Positions 3,623-15,957 of a stretch of 64,000 nt of DNA are shown here, one piece after another (the first letter of the stretch is position 1; each line of letters starts with the position of its first letter). The notes beneath the pieces were generated by a model that saw only the letters and a program-made list of their open reading frames with translations, had not been told where the DNA came from and searched no databases. Source of the stretch: Amycolatopsis sp. EV170708-02-1 (GTDB lineage Bacteria; Actinomycetota; Actinomycetes; Mycobacteriales; Pseudonocardiaceae); NCBI RefSeq assembly GCF_022479115.1, contig NZ_CP092497.1:5270001-5334000 (forward strand). The letters are read 5' to 3'. The translations under genes were made by a program, and so were the position numbers.

Positions 3623-6478
<2,856 letters not shown>

Positions 6479-7778: not shown

Positions 7779-7885
7779 GAGCGTCCTGTGGTTCGGCTTG
7801 CGGGGCGACGCGAGCCTACGTCGTGCACCTGTGCGCCGCCTGTGCGGGTGGAACCGATTGCAGGCGAACGACTACCGTGTGCGGT

Positions 7886-8563
7886 GTGAACATCGTCGAG
7901 ACCTACACCGGGCATGTCGACCCAGGCGGCGACGCCACCCGTCGCACCCTGGACGCGCTCACCATCACGAAGCTGTCGGTCGGCCCGATGGACAACAACG
8001 CGTATCTGCTCGTCTGCCGCGCGGAGAACGAGGCGCTGCTGATCGACGCCGCGAACGACCCGGAACGGATCTCCGACCTCATCGGCCACGGCCCCGACAG
8101 GCCCGCGCTGAGGACCGTCGTGACCACCCATCAGCACCAGGACCACTGGCAGGCCCTCGGCGCCGTCGCCGGAGCGAACGGCTCGAACACCGCCGCCCAC
8201 CCGCTGGACGCCGAGCCGCTGCCGATCCCGCCGGACTTCCTCGTCGAACACGGCGACACCGTCAAGGTCGGGCAGATCACCCTCGAAGTGATCCACCTGC
8301 GCGGCCACACCCCCGGCTCCATCGCGCTGCTGTACCGGGACCCGAACGGACACCCGCACCTGTTCACCGGGGACTCGCTGTTCCCCGGCGGCGTCGGGAA
8401 GACCGGCTCGCCGGAGGACTTCAAGTCGCTGCTGGACGACGTCGAGACGCGGATCTTCGGCGAGCTGCCGGACGAGACTTGGTTCTACCCGGGACATGGG
8501 GACGACTCGACTCTTGGCGCGGAGCGTCCGAAGCTCGCGGAGTGGCGCGAACGCGGCTGGTGA
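7886..8563 (+). CDS. MBL-fold metallo-hydrolase (glyoxalase II-like)
   Basis: 225 aa from the GTG at 7886. The frame opens earlier (7823), but the protein homology begins at VNIVETYTGHVD. The zinc ligands are visible: THQHQDHW (HxHxDH), H in LRGHTPGS, D in FTGDSLF and the final H in YPGHGDD. The family hydrolyses thioesters such as S-lactoylglutathione or mycothiol equivalents, or other esters. A related MBL gene neighbours uvrA in other actinobacteria, as I recall (Rv1637c next to Rv1638), so this belongs to the conserved neighbourhood rather than the accessory cargo. Confidence 0.88.
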   Translation: MNIVETYTGHVDPGGDATRRTLDALTITKLSVGPMDNNAYLLVCRAENEALLIDAANDPERISDLIGHGPDRPALRTVVTTHQHQDHWQALGAVAGANGSNTAAHPLDAEPLPIPPDFLVEHGDTVKVGQITLEVIHLRGHTPGSIALLYRDPNGHPHLFTGDSLFPGGVGKTGSPEDFKSLLDDVETRIFGELPDETWFYPGHGDDSTLGAERPKLAEWRERGW

Positions 8564-8626: not shown

Positions 8627-10030
8627 CTAAGCCGGGAATGCGCCGGAGCGCGTTGGGAAGGGTACCTTCCGAACAAACCTCTCCTCCGGCCAGAAGGTGT
8701 CTCCCAGCATCAATTGGTCGAAAAGCACACAGACGGCTCCGGGTGTGTCCTCGGAATCCCAGACGTCCGACACGTTTCGGCCGCGTTCGTTCCCATGCCG
8801 GCTCAGCCAGTAGATCCTGTCGCCCGGCCTGAGCTCGAAAGCCGATACGAGCTCCCGGCGCGGCGACTTGTGAGTACTCGGTCGTCCGACTCGCGCGTTG
8901 AAACCGAATTCCGGGGCTGGCCGAGGGCACCGCCAGACGATCCGGAATTGCTCGTCGATCGGCTGTGCAGGTGAACCTATCAGTACCTCTTTGACCAGGT
9001 AGAACGTGACGAGCCGACGCGCCTTGGCCGACATCTTGTGCCACGGTTTCGAGACCGCTTCGGCAGACGCCTCGGCATCCGACTCCAACTCCGTGGCGAT
9101 GGTGGCCAGACCGTGGTCGGTCGCTGCTTCGGAGTGAAGTTGCCGGATCGACCGGGTCAACGCGTCGGGGTCCACCCAAAGATGGTGTTCAACTCGTCTG
9201 GACACGTAGTTGTCACGTGCGTCGATGTTGGTATGAAGCGGCGGATCATCGTCGGCCGGTTCGCGAGCCCACTGAGCCGCGTCGAAACAGGCCGCCAGCC
9301 ACTGTGCTTCAGCAGTGCTCAGTATCTTGTCCACCAATACGGCCATACCGGGAAACAGCCCTGGTCGACCGTTGGGATGGAAATGCTCAGGACCCACGTG
9401 CTCCGGATGCCAGTCGAGATCGCTGTGGAGCAGGGTCGCGAATCCTTCACCCCGACGCTGCCAGAAGATCAGATCCTCGCCGAACACGTTCACGTGGTGC
9501 TGCACGATGTCCGACGGACCGAACTCGACGCCGGCCATTTCACCCAGCTGGGCCTGGATGATCCGGTTGCCTCGATAGCGACTCAGGTAGCGTCTGACCT
9601 CGGCGACGAATGCCACAACGGACACGTCGTCCAACTTCTGTTTCGGGCTGATGTTGATCGTCGTCAGCACCTTCCCTTCGCGCCGCGCCGACAGCAATTG
9701 CTTGGTGGCATTGGCCCAGTAGAGACCATCGGTGTCCGGGTCGTGCACCACGCAGAGCACAGGGATGTTGCCATCGGCCCAGGTGCCACCGTGGCCGCCG
9801 ACCGGGACGGCGTAGCTGTCAGCCCTGCGCCACGAACGACCACCCTTGACCTGGACCTTGACCAGGTCGCCAGTGACCTCACCGTCCTCGGTGAATGTGA
9901 CGTGTTGGTCCTCGCCGAAGTCGTTCTGGCCGTCCACCTCCTGAACGATGTGATTGTGTCGCTCCAGAAGCGCCCGCAGCGCGTTGACCGCCGCGCGACT
10001 GGGTCTGCGAGCCTCAGGCACCTTCGGCAA
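8627..10030 (-). CDS. DUF4365 domain protein, nuclease-like N-terminus
   Basis: 467 aa with a TTG start supported by an AGGGGG ribosome site 6 bp upstream. The N-terminal 130 residues match the DUF4365 pattern: HNHIVQEVDGQNDFGEDQHV followed by the strand LVKVQVKGG. Asp/Glu at 37-41 and Q60-x-K62 fit a PD-(D/E)XK-like core. The remaining 330 residues, ending in an all-beta-looking tail (ELRPGDRIYWLSRHG), match nothing I recognise. Base composition and codon use are looser than in flanking housekeeping genes. It is divergent from a second PD-(D/E)XK-like gene 121 bp away. Possible role in DNA restriction or defence; unproven. Confidence 0.75.
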   Translation of the reverse strand: MPKVPEARRPSRAAVNALRALLERHNHIVQEVDGQNDFGEDQHVTFTEDGEVTGDLVKVQVKGGRSWRRADSYAVPVGGHGGTWADGNIPVLCVVHDPDTDGLYWANATKQLLSARREGKVLTTINISPKQKLDDVSVVAFVAEVRRYLSRYRGNRIIQAQLGEMAGVEFGPSDIVQHHVNVFGEDLIFWQRRGEGFATLLHSDLDWHPEHVGPEHFHPNGRPGLFPGMAVLVDKILSTAEAQWLAACFDAAQWAREPADDDPPLHTNIDARDNYVSRRVEHHLWVDPDALTRSIRQLHSEAATDHGLATIATELESDAEASAEAVSKPWHKMSAKARRLVTFYLVKEVLIGSPAQPIDEQFRIVWRCPRPAPEFGFNARVGRPSTHKSPRRELVSAFELRPGDRIYWLSRHGNERGRNVSDVWDSEDTPGAVCVLFDQLMLGDTFWPEERFVRKVPFPTRSGAFPA

Positions 10031-10151
10031 TGGATCCCCCTGGATAGTGGCGCACGCCGGCCGGCGAGTTGGTCCGCGACTGGTTGGGCGCGGTTACAGG
10101 ATAGGGGTTTGATGAACTGGCTGGGATCGTCGCCACCTGAGACACTGCGGT

Positions 10152-11405
10152 GTGGATCTTGATCAGGCGCGGAAGGTCGTCGGCTCGCACGCCTACCTGC
10201 ACGGAGAAAGCAGTGACGGACTCATCCACCGTGTCATGAACGCGCCGGGTTTCGTCAACCCCGGCAAGACACTGTCACCGGCCAGCGGCCTGGAAAATGG
10301 TGTGGTGCTTCGACCGATCGAAGCACTACACCAACTCGCTTACGCGACAGCGTCCCGCTACCAAGACGATCTGCTCGACATTTACGCACAATGGGGACTC
10401 TTGCGTTATTTGGCGTTCTTCGATCTTGTCGACGTCGAAGACCTCACCAGAACTGGACCACCACGGCTCAAGGTGAGCGACGCGGGCAGCCGCATCGTAG
10501 GCAACCAGCGCCGCGTAGCCTCCGAGGAGATAGGGATCGGATTCGGCGTCCTCCTCGCTCGCCAATGGTTCGCTCGGACCGGAGCGGGAATGGCCCCCGT
10601 CAGCATCATCGACCTGGATGCGGCATTGGACGATCGCTATGTCTTCGCCGGCGGGGCCCGGCAAGCGGTGCGAAAAATCGGGAAACATCGCCCCGACTAT
10701 CTCCTGGTCGCCGCTGACCCTCAAGCCAGCCGTCGTTACCGGATCCGCACGCTCGAATGCAAGGGAACCAAGAACCGCCGCACCGCGATACAGCAGCTCG
10801 GAAAAGCGGTCCGGCAACTCGACGGCATCACCGTCGACGGAAGAACCCCCGTCGGCCTTGCCACTTCCGTAGTCGCCTCCGACGGTGCACTTTCATATCT
10901 CGCGATCGATCCCGGCGATGAGGAAGAGCCGGCGTACGAATTCAATTCGCGCCTGATCGACGAGACTCGCCGATTTCGCTTGCGGGATGACATCAGGGAT
11001 CAGCCATCACTCGCGCTCACAAACGCGGCGGTGAGCGCATCGTGGGCGATGCTCGCCGACTTCGGCGGCAACTTCCTCGCGCGCGAACGCTGGACACCCG
11101 AGATCATGCGCGCCCGGCTCAGGCGTCGCCCGCGAGATCGCGTGCACTTCGATACGCCGTTCGGCGGTGCACGCGGTACCAGTGTCACGTTCGATTTCGC
11201 AGAGGGACAAATCACCGCCAGGTATGCGATCAGCGAAGCCGTCGACCAGGAACTCGGCCAGGGCACAACTGACCGCATCATCGAAGCTCAGGCAGCGTTC
11301 GCCAACCGACTGTCACGGGATGACGAGGCAACCAGCTTGGCTGGCGACAACGAGTTGTACTCGGCCACGACCGACGGATCCATCTTCTCGCTGAGTCTCC
11401 GATAG
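10152..11405 (+). CDS. Hypothetical protein with PD-(D/E)XK-like nuclease signature
   Basis: 417 aa, GTG start. Residues 180-215 read HRPDYLL, then after a loop YRIRTLECKGTKNRRTAIQQLGKAV. This is the Asp...Glu-x-Lys arrangement (D182, E202, K204) followed by a helix, as in PD-(D/E)XK nucleases. An earlier acidic pair, E125-E126 in a helix (SEEIGIG), could be the fourth catalytic residue. The N-terminal 120 residues look helical and may form a DNA-binding or scaffold domain; the C-terminal 150 are unassigned. No membrane segments. I do not recognise the family. Divergent partner of the DUF4365 gene. Confidence 0.7.
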   Translation: MDLDQARKVVGSHAYLHGESSDGLIHRVMNAPGFVNPGKTLSPASGLENGVVLRPIEALHQLAYATASRYQDDLLDIYAQWGLLRYLAFFDLVDVEDLTRTGPPRLKVSDAGSRIVGNQRRVASEEIGIGFGVLLARQWFARTGAGMAPVSIIDLDAALDDRYVFAGGARQAVRKIGKHRPDYLLVAADPQASRRYRIRTLECKGTKNRRTAIQQLGKAVRQLDGITVDGRTPVGLATSVVASDGALSYLAIDPGDEEEPAYEFNSRLIDETRRFRLRDDIRDQPSLALTNAAVSASWAMLADFGGNFLARERWTPEIMRARLRRRPRDRVHFDTPFGGARGTSVTFDFAEGQITARYAISEAVDQELGQGTTDRIIEAQAAFANRLSRDDEATSLAGDNELYSATTDGSIFSLSLR

Positions 11406-11430: not shown

Positions 11431-11859
11431 TCAGACCGCGACGACCTCGACCATACCGCCCAGACCTTTGAAGTCGTCCGCGTTGCGGGTGTAGAGCGGC
11501 AGTCCACGCGAAGACGCGATGGCGGCGATCATCAGGTCCATCCGCCGCGGCTTCGGATCACGGTTCGCCACGAGAACCAGCGCGACCAGCGTTCCATAGC
11601 GGGCAGCCGCGTCACCGTCGAACGGCAACGGGGTGAAATCGACAATGGCGGCGCCGAGCATTTCGGTACGTGCCGCTCGGACAGCGGCGTCCTTCGCCAT
11701 CGCGACTCCCTGATGCAGCTCAGCCATGGTGACTGCGGTGAGTTCCGGGAGCTTGGGAAGCGACGCGGGATCGAGCAGGCCGAGGTCGATGTAGGTACAG
11801 GTGTCGAGCACGCCTGCCTCAGGCCGATCAGTCACGAGACCGCCCCCAGGCGTCGTCAT
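11431..11859 (-). CDS. PIN-domain ribonuclease toxin (VapC-like)
   Basis: About 142 aa from the ATG at 11859. A GTG at 11835 would give a shorter form that overlaps the antitoxin by only 8 bp. The PIN active-site acids are visible: LDTCTYIDL (first Asp), MAELHQG (Glu) and [11 protein letters not shown] (Asp), with a final NADDF. Mg-dependent RNases of this kind cleave tRNA or rRNA when free. The gene overlaps the end of the Phd-type antitoxin gene (32 bp with the ATG start), so the pair is translated together. The frame is open further upstream, but that part is antisense-like filler inside the antitoxin gene. Confidence 0.85.
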
Positions 11860-12106
11860 GGTCCACTCGGTCCTCGGTGCCGAAGAACTCATCGGCTTCC
11901 CGTCGCAGCTGAGCCGCCTCGACCCTGGGCAACCCACGGTGACGCTGGACCAACTCCTCCGCACTGAGGCGACGCCTGCGCGATATTGGTCGTAGCTCAG
12001 CTACCTCGACACCGTTCCGCGTGACGTGGTAGGTCTCGCCCGCCTCCACGGCATCCATCACAGCGGCGGAATTGTTCCGGAACTCTCGCTGAGTGATCAC
12101 CTTCAC
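11828..12106 (-). CDS. Phd/YefM-family antitoxin
   Basis: 92 aa. The first 45 residues ([20 protein letters not shown], then a [17 protein letters not shown] strand pair) are the Phd/YefM DNA-binding fold. The basic linker [18 protein letters not shown] leads to an acidic tail that would wrap the PIN toxin. First gene of the pair. An inverted repeat 19-37 bp upstream of the start is the likely autoregulatory operator. Confidence 0.87.
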
Positions 12107-12143: not shown

Positions 12144-12283
12144 TACCCTGAACTACTTCACGTTACGAACGCGATCACTCACAGAGCGCATCCCGCGCCA
12201 CCTGCTCGGAGGACGGCTCCGAACACGGCGTTGCTCGATACTGGAAAAGTTCGACTATGTCGCCGTCCACGGGGAGGAGGCGG

Positions 12284-13354
12284 ATGAACCCCGTTCGCCC
12301 GCTCGTCGCGGTCAAAGCCAAGCTCGGAGAGTTGACCGCCCTGGCCAGTCTGCGATCTCACGGCGCATCGGCCCGTGTAATGGTCGAGTTACTCGACTCC
12401 GTGACACCGACTGGCAGGATCCTCCCCGCGCTCGTCCGAGCCGCCGCTCAGGCCGCGCACCAAGGCCGCACTTTGTGGCTCGACACCACTTGGCTGACAG
12501 CCAACAGTCCGCTCGTACAGCAGCCAGGAGGAGTGTTCGAGTTCCTCGACCATGCCATTGAAGTGGCAGCACAGGCTGAATACGGACTTTTCGCTCCTGA
12601 CAGCCCCTATCTGGTTCCCGTCGTCACGCTCGATGCCACTGAGAACGAGTTACGCAGAGTGCGTCTTCTGCTCGAACATCAGGATCGCGACGTCGCCATC
12701 CGGCTCCCCCAACCTGGCGGACCGCTACGCGAACTCCTCGGGCGGATCGACTCGATCATGAGGTCCACAGGTACGCGACAGGGGCGCGTCCATATGATCC
12801 TCGACGCCGGCTTCGTCGAATCCGTCCGTCCAGGCCATGCCGCCGCGGCGGCCGAAACCGCCTCGGCGTTGTCAGACCTGCTCGGCCCTGCCAAGACCAC
12901 CCTTCTTGCCGGGTCCATCCCAGCCAAGCGAACCACCTACGTGACGACCGAACGCGATCGCCCGGAAGTCACCCTCTGGAACGAAGTACGCCACGCCCGC
13001 ACGAACGAGGTCAACTACGGCGACTATGGCGTGACGCATCCGAGGCCACCGAGGTCCGACGGCCAACCGAGAACCCCTAATCCCTACCTCTGCTACACCG
13101 TGCCGGGAAAGACCGTATTGCTGCGTCGCAAAGTCGAAGACGGCGACGATCCCGCCGAGCGATTCACGGACCTGGTCGAGGAGCTGGTCGAAAGGGCCGA
13201 CTTCGCCGGACCGGGCTACTCATGGGGAGACGATGAACTGACGCGATGCCGGCGCACCGGCGGCAGATCCACCGGTTCCGTCTCTCGCTGGGTCGCCATG
13301 GCCACCTCTCACCACATCGAACATGTGGCACGGAGATCCGCCGCCGACCTCTGA
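12284..13354 (+). CDS. Beta family protein (phage T4 beta-like)
   Basis: 356 aa. I chose the ATG at 12284 because GGAGGAGG sits 5-8 bp upstream; an ATG nine codons earlier has no ribosome site. The opening PLVAVKAKLGELTALASL, then RILPALVRA and YLVPVVTLDA, match the beta-protein family pattern: a P-x-K-x-GE-x-x-AL start and repeated alternating strands and helices as in a TIM-like barrel. Known from phages and scattered bacterial islands; molecular activity uncertain. The C-terminal 40 residues are basic. It stands alone on the + strand between the toxin-antitoxin pair and a minus-strand operon. Confidence 0.65.
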   Translation: MNPVRPLVAVKAKLGELTALASLRSHGASARVMVELLDSVTPTGRILPALVRAAAQAAHQGRTLWLDTTWLTANSPLVQQPGGVFEFLDHAIEVAAQAEYGLFAPDSPYLVPVVTLDATENELRRVRLLLEHQDRDVAIRLPQPGGPLRELLGRIDSIMRSTGTRQGRVHMILDAGFVESVRPGHAAAAAETASALSDLLGPAKTTLLAGSIPAKRTTYVTTERDRPEVTLWNEVRHARTNEVNYGDYGVTHPRPPRSDGQPRTPNPYLCYTVPGKTVLLRRKVEDGDDPAERFTDLVEELVERADFAGPGYSWGDDELTRCRRTGGRSTGSVSRWVAMATSHHIEHVARRSAADL

Positions 13355-13361
13355 CTCGACG

Positions 13362-13697
13362 TCAAAAGCACGCTTCGGGAGCAGGAGCGTGGATCCAGCA
13401 AAGCTCCCCCGTCGCCGCCTCCTCCCCCAGCGCCTTGACCTCACAGGCCAACCGCGAGAGAACGTCGTCCTTCGACCCCGGCCACGCCACGAAGTCGCGA
13501 TCCTTGCCCACCAGATCGCCGGGGACCGCGCCGCGGTCGATCAAGGCGCCGACCACTGAGAGCAGCGCCGCGATCTTCTCCGTGAAGGCCGCGTCTTCGC
13601 CCACCTTCGCTCCTGCCACGGCGAGCACGACCGAGAGTCCGACCCGGTCCTCTCGCGCGTAGCCGAGCAGCGACTCCAAGCCCACGTCACTGGCCAT
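13362..13697 (-). CDS. Hypothetical protein, small acidic
   Basis: 111 aa from the ATG at 13697, preceded by GGGGA; a GTG two codons upstream is possible. Two helices (GLSVVLAVAGAKVGED; AFTEKIAALLSVVGALIDRG) precede a short conserved-looking DRDFVAWPGSKDDVLSRLACEV segment and the end CWIHAP. No signal peptide or membrane span. It starts 12 bp after the stop of the upstream unknown gene, so the two form an operon. The shape suggests a small binding or immunity-type protein, but I cannot name the family. Confidence 0.6.
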   Translation of the reverse strand: MASDVGLESLLGYAREDRVGLSVVLAVAGAKVGEDAAFTEKIAALLSVVGALIDRGAVPGDLVGKDRDFVAWPGSKDDVLSRLACEVKALGEEAATGELCWIHAPAPEACF

Positions 13698-13709: not shown

Positions 13710-14267
13710 TCAGCAGAAGGCGATGCCGTACTGCTCCCGTGGGCGGCACGGCCCACGAAACGTGTGCTCGACGACGCCTCGCCGGATCTCGAGCAGACGG
13801 CCGTCGCCGGCCGGTGGCCGGACCATGCGCTCACACTCGGACTGTTCGGCGTACCACCAGCAGGCCTCGGGGACGCGGTCGTCGAACGTGATGCTGACGT
13901 TCAGCCCTCCGGTCACCTTGCCCTCGTCGTCGACGACACCCGGCGCGATCCCTTGATGGTCGACATCGACGTTGATCCACCGTGTCTCCTCGTCGAGATC
14001 GCCGTGGCATACGAGGGAAACGAACTCGTGCCGTTCTCCTTTGCGCAGTGGTCTGGGGAAGCGCAGGTCCACGGCAGCCGGCGAAGTCTCCACGCGGCAA
14101 CCGAAGATCGCTTTGACGGGAACCGACCCCGGATCGCCGGTCACGTAACCGTCGACACCGTTCTCACAGGCGACGACGGTTCGCACCGCCAGGCGCCGAT
14201 AGGCCCTTCCGCGCCGTATTTCCACGTCCACCATCAGGCGTTCCAGGAACACAGGTTGCGCAGTCAC
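13710..14267 (-). CDS. Hypothetical protein, first gene of a two-gene operon
   Basis: 185 aa from a GTG at 14267; an ATG at 14234 is the alternative. The frame stays open to 14687, but that part is antisense to the divergent DUF6734 gene. The sequence looks mostly beta: LMVDVEIRRGRAYRRLAVRTVVAC, a central DLRFPRPLRKGERHEFVSL and WINVDVDHQGI. It has an aromatic-rich CWWYAEQSECERM near the end and six cysteines. This hints at a substrate-binding or C-terminal effector module. Family not recognised. It shares a palindromic operator region with the DUF6734 gene. Confidence 0.55.
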   Translation of the reverse strand: MTAQPVFLERLMVDVEIRRGRAYRRLAVRTVVACENGVDGYVTGDPGSVPVKAIFGCRVETSPAAVDLRFPRPLRKGERHEFVSLVCHGDLDEETRWINVDVDHQGIAPGVVDDEGKVTGGLNVSITFDDRVPEACWWYAEQSECERMVRPPAGDGRLLEIRRGVVEHTFRGPCRPREQYGIAFC

Positions 14268-14301
14268 TGTCGACGACAAGAAACCCTCCCGCCCGTCCCA
14301 A

Positions 14302-14317
14302 GGTGTACTAGTACACC
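14302..14317. promoter_or_regulatory. Perfect 16-bp palindromic operator between divergent genes
   Basis: GGTGTACTAGTACACC is a perfect palindrome, 4 bp upstream of the DUF6734 ATG and about 35 bp from the divergent start. It resembles operators of GntR-type repressors with a TAC...GTA core, as I recall them. It is placed to control both transcripts. No GntR-type regulator gene is in this window. Confidence 0.65.
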
Positions 14318-14321
14318 ACAA

Positions 14322-15383
14322 ATGAGCGTAACGTTCGACCACCCCGACCCGAACCACTTCGCGATGCCGTACTACGGATACGACCCCGGCACAGCGGTCG
14401 CCATCGGCGGCCACCTGCTCGCGCCCGGGATTTCCCGGAACGGCGGATACGGCGAGGTCGCCGAGCCTGGCTGGGCTCCCCCGCCTGTCCGCGTGGTCCG
14501 TCCGGGTGACCGGGCCGCGCGCCCGATCCGCCGGGCGGTCTGGTCGTTCTGGAGCACTCCGTACCGGCGGCGGCACGGGAGACACTGGCCCAGCGATTTC
14601 TTCCACGCGCTGTCCTGGATCCTGTCGTTCCGCCTCGCGTCCCAGCTCTTCCCCACGACGGCGCTGGTCACCGACGACTGGGGGCATGAACTGCTCGTCA
14701 CCCGGCTCCGGCTGCCCTTCGACGATATTTCCCTGTCACTGAACGGGCTCGACGGACAGGATCCGTCTTGGTGGGCGCTCGGGAAGCTGCACGCGTACCG
14801 GGAGCAGCGCGAACCGTTCCTGCACATCGACAACGACGTGTTCCTCTGGCCGGGCTTCCCGGCGGCTGGGCTGGACGGGGAGATCGTCGCGCAGAATCCC
14901 GAGCACGCACCGGTTTCCGATGCCGGCTACTACCGGCCCTCGGCCGTCGCCGCGGCGATCCGGAGCACCGGCGGCTTCCTGCCGGAGGAATTCCGCGGCT
15001 ACACCGGGGAAGCCGCGTTGTGCACCGGAATCGTCGGCGGCACGGCGGTTCCTCTTCTCCGCCGCTACGCCGAGCTCGCCGTCCGCATGGTGGAGTCGGC
15101 CGAGAATCGGACGGCCTGGCAACGGCTCGCGCCGCTCGAGGACTACAACCTCGTTGTCGAGCAGTACCTTCTCGGCGCGCTGTGCTGGGGCGGCGACACC
15201 ACCGACGTGCAGTGCGTCTTCGGTTCCCAGGACGACGGCTATCGGCAGGCTGACCGGAGATTCACGCATCTCATCGCATCCGCGAAAAGCGATCTCCGTT
15301 ACCTGCGGTCGCTCGCGGAGCGAGTGAAAAACCATTTCCCCGCCGACTTCGAGATCGCTCGACGACTATACGGCGATCAGTAA
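14322..15383 (+). CDS. DUF6734 family protein, glycosyltransferase-like
   Basis: 353 aa. The start is the ATG at 14322; the frame is open upstream but crosses the divergent gene. Conserved family blocks: VWSFWSTPYRRRH, TALVTDDWGHELLV, LRLPFDDISLSL, WWALGKLHAYREQREPFLHIDNDVFLWPGFP. The DNDVFLW motif is a DxD-type metal/nucleotide-sugar site of GT-A glycosyltransferases. Ser/Thr-rich middle and a C-terminal EDYNLVVEQYLL helix match the family. Cytosolic, no signal. The acceptor is unknown; such genes occur near surface-glycan or peptide-modifying clusters. Probably repressed through the palindrome directly upstream. Confidence 0.75.
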   Translation: MSVTFDHPDPNHFAMPYYGYDPGTAVAIGGHLLAPGISRNGGYGEVAEPGWAPPPVRVVRPGDRAARPIRRAVWSFWSTPYRRRHGRHWPSDFFHALSWILSFRLASQLFPTTALVTDDWGHELLVTRLRLPFDDISLSLNGLDGQDPSWWALGKLHAYREQREPFLHIDNDVFLWPGFPAAGLDGEIVAQNPEHAPVSDAGYYRPSAVAAAIRSTGGFLPEEFRGYTGEAALCTGIVGGTAVPLLRRYAELAVRMVESAENRTAWQRLAPLEDYNLVVEQYLLGALCWGGDTTDVQCVFGSQDDGYRQADRRFTHLIASAKSDLRYLRSLAERVKNHFPADFEIARRLYGDQ

Positions 15384-15462: not shown

Positions 15463-15957
15463 ATGGCCGTCACCCTCCGGCGCGCGCTCGGAGCGCTCGC
15501 CGCCACCTCCATCATGCTGACCGGCGCCATCGCCGCGGCCGCGCCCGCTTCCGTCGCGGCACCGGCGATCCCCACGATGACGGGGATCCGCACCGGCCAG
15601 AACACCGGGTTCGACCGGGTCGTGCTCGACCTGACCGCCGGCCCGGCACCCGCCGTCCGGTACGACCTCGTCGACGAGCTGATCGCCGACGGCTCGGGCG
15701 AAATCGTCTGGCTGACCGGGGAATTCTTCATCGCCGTCACCGCGACCCCGGCCGCCGCGCACGACGACGCCGGGAATCCCACCTATCCCGGTCCGCAGAA
15801 GTTCCGGACCAGGAATCTGCGCAACGTCATGGCGGTCGCGGTCACCGGCGACTACGAAGGCACGTTGTCCATCGGTCTCGGCGTCCGGTCGAGGACAGCG
15901 GTCACCGTGTTCACGCTGACCTCTCCGAACCGGGTCGTCATCGACGTCCGCCATTGA
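15463..15957 (+). CDS. Secreted AMIN-like domain protein
   Basis: 164 aa with a clear Sec signal peptide (residues 1-32; RR, then a hydrophobic core ending ASVAAPA) and a CAGGAGG ribosome site. The mature part holds GIRTGQNTGFDRVVLDLTAGPAPAVRYDLVDEL and the closing TLTSPNRVVIDVRH. These are the strand signatures of the AMIN-like fold, which in other proteins binds cell-wall or outer-surface polysaccharide. No catalytic domain is attached. Likely exported to the cell envelope. It stands alone in its promoter unit, 79 bp after the DUF6734 gene. Confidence 0.75.
   Translation: MAVTLRRALGALAATSIMLTGAIAAAAPASVAAPAIPTMTGIRTGQNTGFDRVVLDLTAGPAPAVRYDLVDELIADGSGEIVWLTGEFFIAVTATPAAAHDDAGNPTYPGPQKFRTRNLRNVMAVAVTGDYEGTLSIGLGVRSRTAVTVFTLTSPNRVVIDVRH

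Follow-up and report, generated by a model that had tools for sequence, protein, structure and literature searches.

The two proteins and their described relatives

Two kinds of bacterial defence lie closest to the locus described here. Restriction without a methyltransferase is carried out by lone nucleases, such as the type IV and DpnI-like enzymes. SPARDA systems pair a short prokaryotic Argonaute with a DREN (DUF4365)-APAZ protein. PMC12205087 describes DREN as inactive alone and activated by assembly. We analysed a 64,000-nucleotide window of the single-contig, 9.66 Mb genome of Amycolatopsis sp. EV170708-02-1 (G000; contig NZ_CP092497.1, positions 5,270,001 to 5,334,000), in which genes for a 467-amino acid (aa) DUF4365 protein (TTG start) and a 417-aa protein (GTG start) point in opposite directions, with 121 bp between their start codons (Table 1). 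The initial annotation placed both genes correctly, and suggested that they might form an undescribed two-nuclease restriction or abortive-infection module. Models, invariant residues and neighbourhood support its view that the genes encode distinct nucleases of the PD-(D/E)XK type, with a probable role in defence, but the joint module is not supported: the two genes are most likely not partners. We think it probable that each is independent cargo of an Amycolatopsis defence hotspot directly downstream of the genes for UvrA, an acyltransferase and a metallo-beta-lactamase (MBL)-fold hydrolase, the 417-aa protein being a stand-alone nuclease and the DUF4365 protein a DREN-type nuclease.

The DUF4365 assignment of the minus-strand gene in the initial annotation reflects a real match to PF14280 (E 2e-16, residues 12-139). 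The sequence profile, the predicted fold and the D/Q/K catalytic residues, the last by comparison with those of the DREN structure in PMC12205087, all point to a DREN-like nuclease, and the predicted fold and catalytic residues are shared with SPARDA. With regard to an APAZ fusion, the PADLOC Argonaute-associated profile covers only residues 12-111; SPARDA structures align only to model residues 1-158, with a weak match elsewhere possible; and the C-terminus, which is predicted to form a helical part followed by an SH3-like barrel, appears unlike SPARDA. The gene is surrounded by the hydrolase, 417-aa, VapC-like and Phd genes rather than by a short Argonaute gene. A search of the host genome for Piwi (PF02171) gave no match, though the profile might miss a short Argonaute that has diverged, and on this ground we rejected SPARDA as the identity of the system. 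The titles found in a literature search on standalone DREN or DUF4365 proteins included nothing on an Argonaute-free DREN. A second, shorter DUF4365 gene lies elsewhere in the host genome (C1:8522676-8523134, locus L131; E 3.2e-18).

For the 417-aa protein, searches of Pfam, NCBIfam and PADLOC gave no family match that rose above noise. It nonetheless has invariant PD-(D/E)XK catalytic residues together with a matching predicted core. Only six columns are invariant in 109 homologues (D182, Y183, E202, K204, G205 and Q215), and these include the three residues singled out by the initial annotation, D182, E202 and K204, which form the D ... (D/E)xK signature. The AlphaFold2 model (mean predicted local distance difference test score 92.1; predicted template modelling score 0.92) suggests a probable winged helix at residues ~55-108, a nuclease core at ~117-254 and a C-terminal domain at 286-417. 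The core is predicted to run helix 117-145, strand 150-154, strand 183-188 (with D182 just ahead), strand 195-206 (carrying E202 and K204), helix 209-225 and strand 235-243, with two further short strands within 163-172. Predicted folds support a nuclease core in the 417-aa protein as well as a DREN-like fold in the DUF4365 protein. Foldseek searches of the PDB and BFVD with the 417-aa model returned nothing at E 0.001 or better, and sequence-profile searches of the PDB with either protein returned nothing convincing. In VIA-align, six of the eight top rows for the 417-aa model were MspI, CinB, PaqCI, HamA of Hachiman and SwaI (CinB and HamA we take to be nuclease folds); the similarity is weak, and these rows cover the predicted core wholly or partly. 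Several lower rows fall on a single stretch of Prp8, presumably its endonuclease-like domain. We rejected the idea that the two nucleases are homologous, because hhalign gave a probability of 0.2% for their profiles, i.e., no similarity.

Like the lone restriction nucleases, the 417-aa protein combines a PD-(D/E)XK core with a probable winged helix, and in five genomes its gene is an insert that brings no methyltransferase with it. Unlike them, it could not be matched to a solved enzyme in our searches, either by sequence or, at a significant level, by structure. It also differs from type II restriction-modification systems, which have a linked cognate methyltransferase: the gene is the single insert in five of the 12 genomes that carry it among 80 genomes of the genus. 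A search of the host genome for C5 methyltransferases, the one methyltransferase class covered, gave no match. Across the genus, a C5 methyltransferase is found in 7/12 holders of the 417-aa gene and 50/68 other genomes (p 0.31), and dndC in 1/12 and 5/68, respectively (p 1.0). Since neither is excluded, avoidance of 5-methylcytosine or of phosphorothioate is not supported, and on these co-occurrence grounds we rejected restriction aimed at either kind of modified DNA.

Purifying selection acts on the 417-aa gene, yet the gene evolves fast. The ratio of non-synonymous to synonymous substitution rates is ~0.19-0.39 in the 21 of 55 genome pairs that are >65% identical, and median pair identity is 0.57, as against 0.91 for the hydrolase. 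These comparisons use 11 copies; the twelfth holder, G022, has only a broken copy and was excluded. The hydrolase identities are approximate, since one of the 11 translations, which we kept in, was interrupted by a stop codon; an offset start is the probable cause. In each of the two protein searches ~8000 candidates were scored and the best 120 listed; a scan of genome contigs with one peptide pattern gave nine loci, a weak census. Searches of plasmids, phages and viral contigs for homologues of the 417-aa protein found none. In Frankia, one small gene separates a homologue from genes for UvrD-like and DruE-like helicases. Longer proteins of related genomes at L044-L050 (458-590 aa, as called) are ~24-32% identical to part of residues 40-258 of the 417-aa protein; the three that we scanned have no Pfam or PADLOC match, and this set looks like a wider, undescribed nuclease branch.

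An insertion site downstream of uvrA

The hydrolase gene is present in all 80 genus genomes; where we compared loci, the acyltransferase gene and uvrA are close to it. Each of the 12 copies of the 417-aa gene, including the broken copy, sits no more than ~3.2 kb downstream of the hydrolase gene. Four of the six DUF4365 genes in the genus are at the same site (G000, G439, G453 and G197), with the other two elsewhere. When we compared the stretch downstream of the hydrolase gene across the 80 genomes (shortened by contig ends in some), the right anchor was recognised at 61 sites, of which 11 are empty, with gaps of 61-360 bp. The empty-site count omits the 19 genomes with no recognised right anchor, where the contig or stretch ends in some cases; it also omits G003, which we removed because its site carries an Mrr-type gene and the 417-aa gene, our custom gene caller having missed or mis-called atypical genes. 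In G023, G025, G027, G450 and G457, the 417-aa gene is the sole gene between the hydrolase gene and the usual right anchor, F4. At these five occupied sites, the sequence found just ahead of F4 at five empty sites comes after the stop codon of the 417-aa gene or, in G027, overlaps it.

Searches with tblastn also detected remnants: an N-terminal piece of the 417-aa gene in G197, a C-terminal piece in G438, and pieces of DUF4365 in G449 (L056:11723-11935, L114:13699-13902 and L075:14199-14612). All are near the same hydrolase gene, which suggests that both genes have been gained and lost at the site. The side-by-side position of the two genes is most likely due to a shared insertion site.

Other genes inserted at the site are varied, and often resemble defence genes. 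We hand-picked thirteen cargo proteins and ran nine, including an Mrr-type protein, against both Pfam and PADLOC, two against PADLOC only and two against Pfam only. Eight have defence-like matches: a UvrD/NERD-like helicase, mad8/HerA, an NB-ARC protein with WD40 repeats, an nSTAND5 NTPase (Pfam only), GmrSD/PDC-M55C, a type II methyltransferase (PADLOC only), an NB-ARC protein with TPR and GT4-conflict matches, and Mrr_cat. The remaining five gave nothing convincing in the libraries used (687 and 1410 aa, both libraries; 1258 aa, PADLOC; 487 and 306 aa, Pfam). No right anchor was seen at two of the cargo loci, L112 and L126.

In the host genome, GC content is 0.619-0.648 at 9-13 kb, below the window mean of 0.681, and GC content at third codon positions is 0.75 in the 467-aa gene and 0.71 in the 417-aa gene, as against 0.92-0.95 in the flanking hydrolase and uvrA genes; however, three other single kilobases of the window (at 25, 45 and 50 kb) have equally low GC. 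The observation that neither gene has a methyltransferase or ATPase partner stands for the genes scanned: seven genes were called from the hydrolase to the right anchor, and Pfam scans of six, that is, all except a 111-aa gene at 13362-13697, found no methyltransferase or ATPase.

Weighing partnership, repair and independent cargo

The reading that both proteins are required in a dedicated two-nuclease defence module, co-regulated from the divergent region between them, draws on the arrangement of two nuclease-like genes in the host genome, and on a second genome, G453, that holds both at the same site. The conserved co-occurrence that this reading predicts is not seen. Among the 80 genus genomes, the 417-aa gene is in 12, DUF4365 (E 1e-30 or better) in six, and both in two (Fisher p 0.22), such that 10 of the 12 and four of the six holders lack the other gene. 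In an order-wide draw of 397 genomes, seven have DUF4365 (E 1e-40 or better), four have the 417-aa gene (E 1e-25 or better), and G000 alone is on both lists. With tblastn, a homologue of the 417-aa protein was not detected in the analysed stretches of five DUF4365 loci from outside the genus (L051-L055), nor was DUF4365 detected at nine named 417-aa loci, several of which are incomplete. In G453, the two are separated by a minus-strand gene (F67, with copies in G423 and G004 that are 66-78% identical), and the DUF4365 frame is broken close to the start; G022, a close relative of the host by uvrA (98.7%), has a broken 417-aa gene, and DUF4365 was not found there. We rejected a conserved divergent pair for these reasons. 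What speaks against independence, and makes a module slightly less improbable, is the count with remnants included. G197 has a diverged DUF4365 gene (~40% identical) alongside its 417-aa remnant, and three of 80 sites then hold both genes (14 and five in total; p 0.035). The corresponding genome-wide count gives p 0.098, and intact genes alone are together at one site of 80 (p 0.53). These p values overstate independence, since G000, G022 and G197 are close relatives (uvrA 98.6-98.7%) and kinship was not corrected for. The residual co-location is what would be expected of genes that share an insertion site; it may still reflect a partnership, and we judge a dedicated two-nuclease module to be improbable.

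A different partner for the 417-aa protein could be the 272-273-aa Mrr_cat-family protein (PF04471; E 7.1e-11 for the G003 copy), whose gene is directly upstream of the 417-aa gene, on the same strand, in three of 12 holders (G003, G005 and G445); the copy in G000 would then have lost its partner. The other nine holders have no Mrr-type gene at the site, five of them having the 417-aa gene as the sole insert, and G434 has the Mrr-type gene at the hotspot without the 417-aa gene. Hence, cooperation is possible in some species and is unnecessary for insertion, and we regard a pairing of this kind, lost in G000, as very unlikely. We looked for a constant partner of DUF4365 and rejected it, because the two loci that lie outside the hotspot (L129 and L130) have no such gene in common. 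The proximity to uvrA raises another alternative, that one or both genes encode ordinary DNA-repair or housekeeping nucleases that are near uvrA by descent. Across genome pairs, the identity of the 417-aa protein correlates with that of the hydrolase (Spearman 0.64), which indicates that the history of the gene is partly vertical. Patchy presence, low GC at third codon positions, empty sites, a rate of change much faster than that of the neighbouring hydrolase, and the presence at this site of other, exchangeable cargo that often resembles defence genes all argue against this, and it too seems unlikely.

Under the preferred reading of independent cargo, a nuclease inserted on its own has to leave its host unharmed, and so must read something foreign or modified, or await a trigger. 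We propose that the winged helix of the 417-aa protein would bind DNA, and that the enzyme would act in restriction without a methyltransferase, cutting DNA that invades the cell. The host would be spared because the enzyme needs either activation or a mark or structure carried by the phage DNA. Given that DREN is inactive alone and activated by assembly, according to PMC12205087, the C-terminal part of the DUF4365 protein is suggested to supply sensing or assembly. Its helical and SH3-like parts could replace the Argonaute/APAZ sensor of SPARDA, and may release a non-specific, abortive nuclease activity. More tentatively, each gene might found a self-contained immune family of one gene. One would be a PD-(D/E)XK nuclease that has a winged helix and a C-terminal domain of its own for sensing or for sparing the host; the other would be a DREN nuclease that works without Argonaute and is gated by a fused helical and SH3-like sensor.

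The result argues against treating the two genes as a two-component system. Better targets are the two uncharacterised single-gene nuclease families, of which the 417-aa family is directly testable because of its single-gene inserts, and the Amycolatopsis site by uvrA, where candidate defence genes, some of known kinds and some not, replace one another while the flanks stay constant. An Argonaute-free DREN protein, if that is what the DUF4365 protein is, would help to reveal how the nuclease is switched on when the SPARDA filament is absent. A literature search found nothing on defence-island hotspots in Amycolatopsis, nor on phage defence with restriction endonucleases in this genus.

Neighbouring genes and further cargo

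Table 1. Features of the insertion site in the Amycolatopsis sp. EV170708-02-1 window
Feature	Position	Strand	Basis
MBL-fold hydrolase gene, left anchor of the hotspot	7886..8563	+	PF00753, E 2.3e-14 (longer frame 7823-8563 scanned)
DUF4365 (DREN-like) nuclease gene, 467 aa; predicted helical middle and C-terminal SH3-like barrel	8627..10030	-	PF14280
Divergent intergenic region	10031..10151	.	121 bp between both start codons; sequence read directly
Predicted PD-(D/E)XK nuclease gene, 417 aa	10152..11405	+	AlphaFold2 model; residues invariant in 109 sequences
VapC-like PIN toxin gene, separate hotspot resident	11431..11811	-	NF047863, E 1.3e-7, under the curated cut-off (longer frame 11431-11964)
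Phd-family antitoxin gene, partner of the VapC-like gene	11828..12106	-	PF02604, E 3.2e-9; TIGR01552
Beta_protein-family gene, hotspot cargo	12257..13354	+	PF14350, E 1.7e-51; PADLOC PD-Lambda-2_C PDLC03984, E 1.1e-24
Conserved 164-aa gene, family F4, usual right anchor in the genus	15463..15957	+	Comparison of occupied and empty sites

The VapC-like gene has hotspot relatives in genomes that lack both nuclease genes, such as G007. Together with the Phd gene it adjoins the Beta_protein gene, whose family (F40) is hotspot cargo in five other genomes. PADLOC, run on the Beta_protein gene and its VapC-like neighbour, matches the former to component C of PD-Lambda-2 and gives no match for the latter. 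The three genes are a possible PD-Lambda-2-like unit, incomplete by PADLOC as run.

Away from the hotspot, the DUF4365 gene of G424 adjoins a complete JetABCD (Wadjet) set (L129:8414-16896). The same locus holds a second, decayed DUF4365 remnant (5553-5986), and one of the frames called there is a DUF4365 remnant read in antisense. The Mrr_cat-family hotspot gene is at L040:8172-8990, with relatives in G005, G445 and G434. Large unmatched cargo genes are further candidates: L082:1436-3499 (687 aa), L126:1432-5661 (1410 aa), L087:12016-13479 (487 aa) and L063:1369-5145 (1258 aa). Lastly, a DUF6734 protein is encoded at 13764-15383 of the window (PF20508, E 5.5e-48), and its family, F27, recurs near the right side of the hotspot in related genomes.
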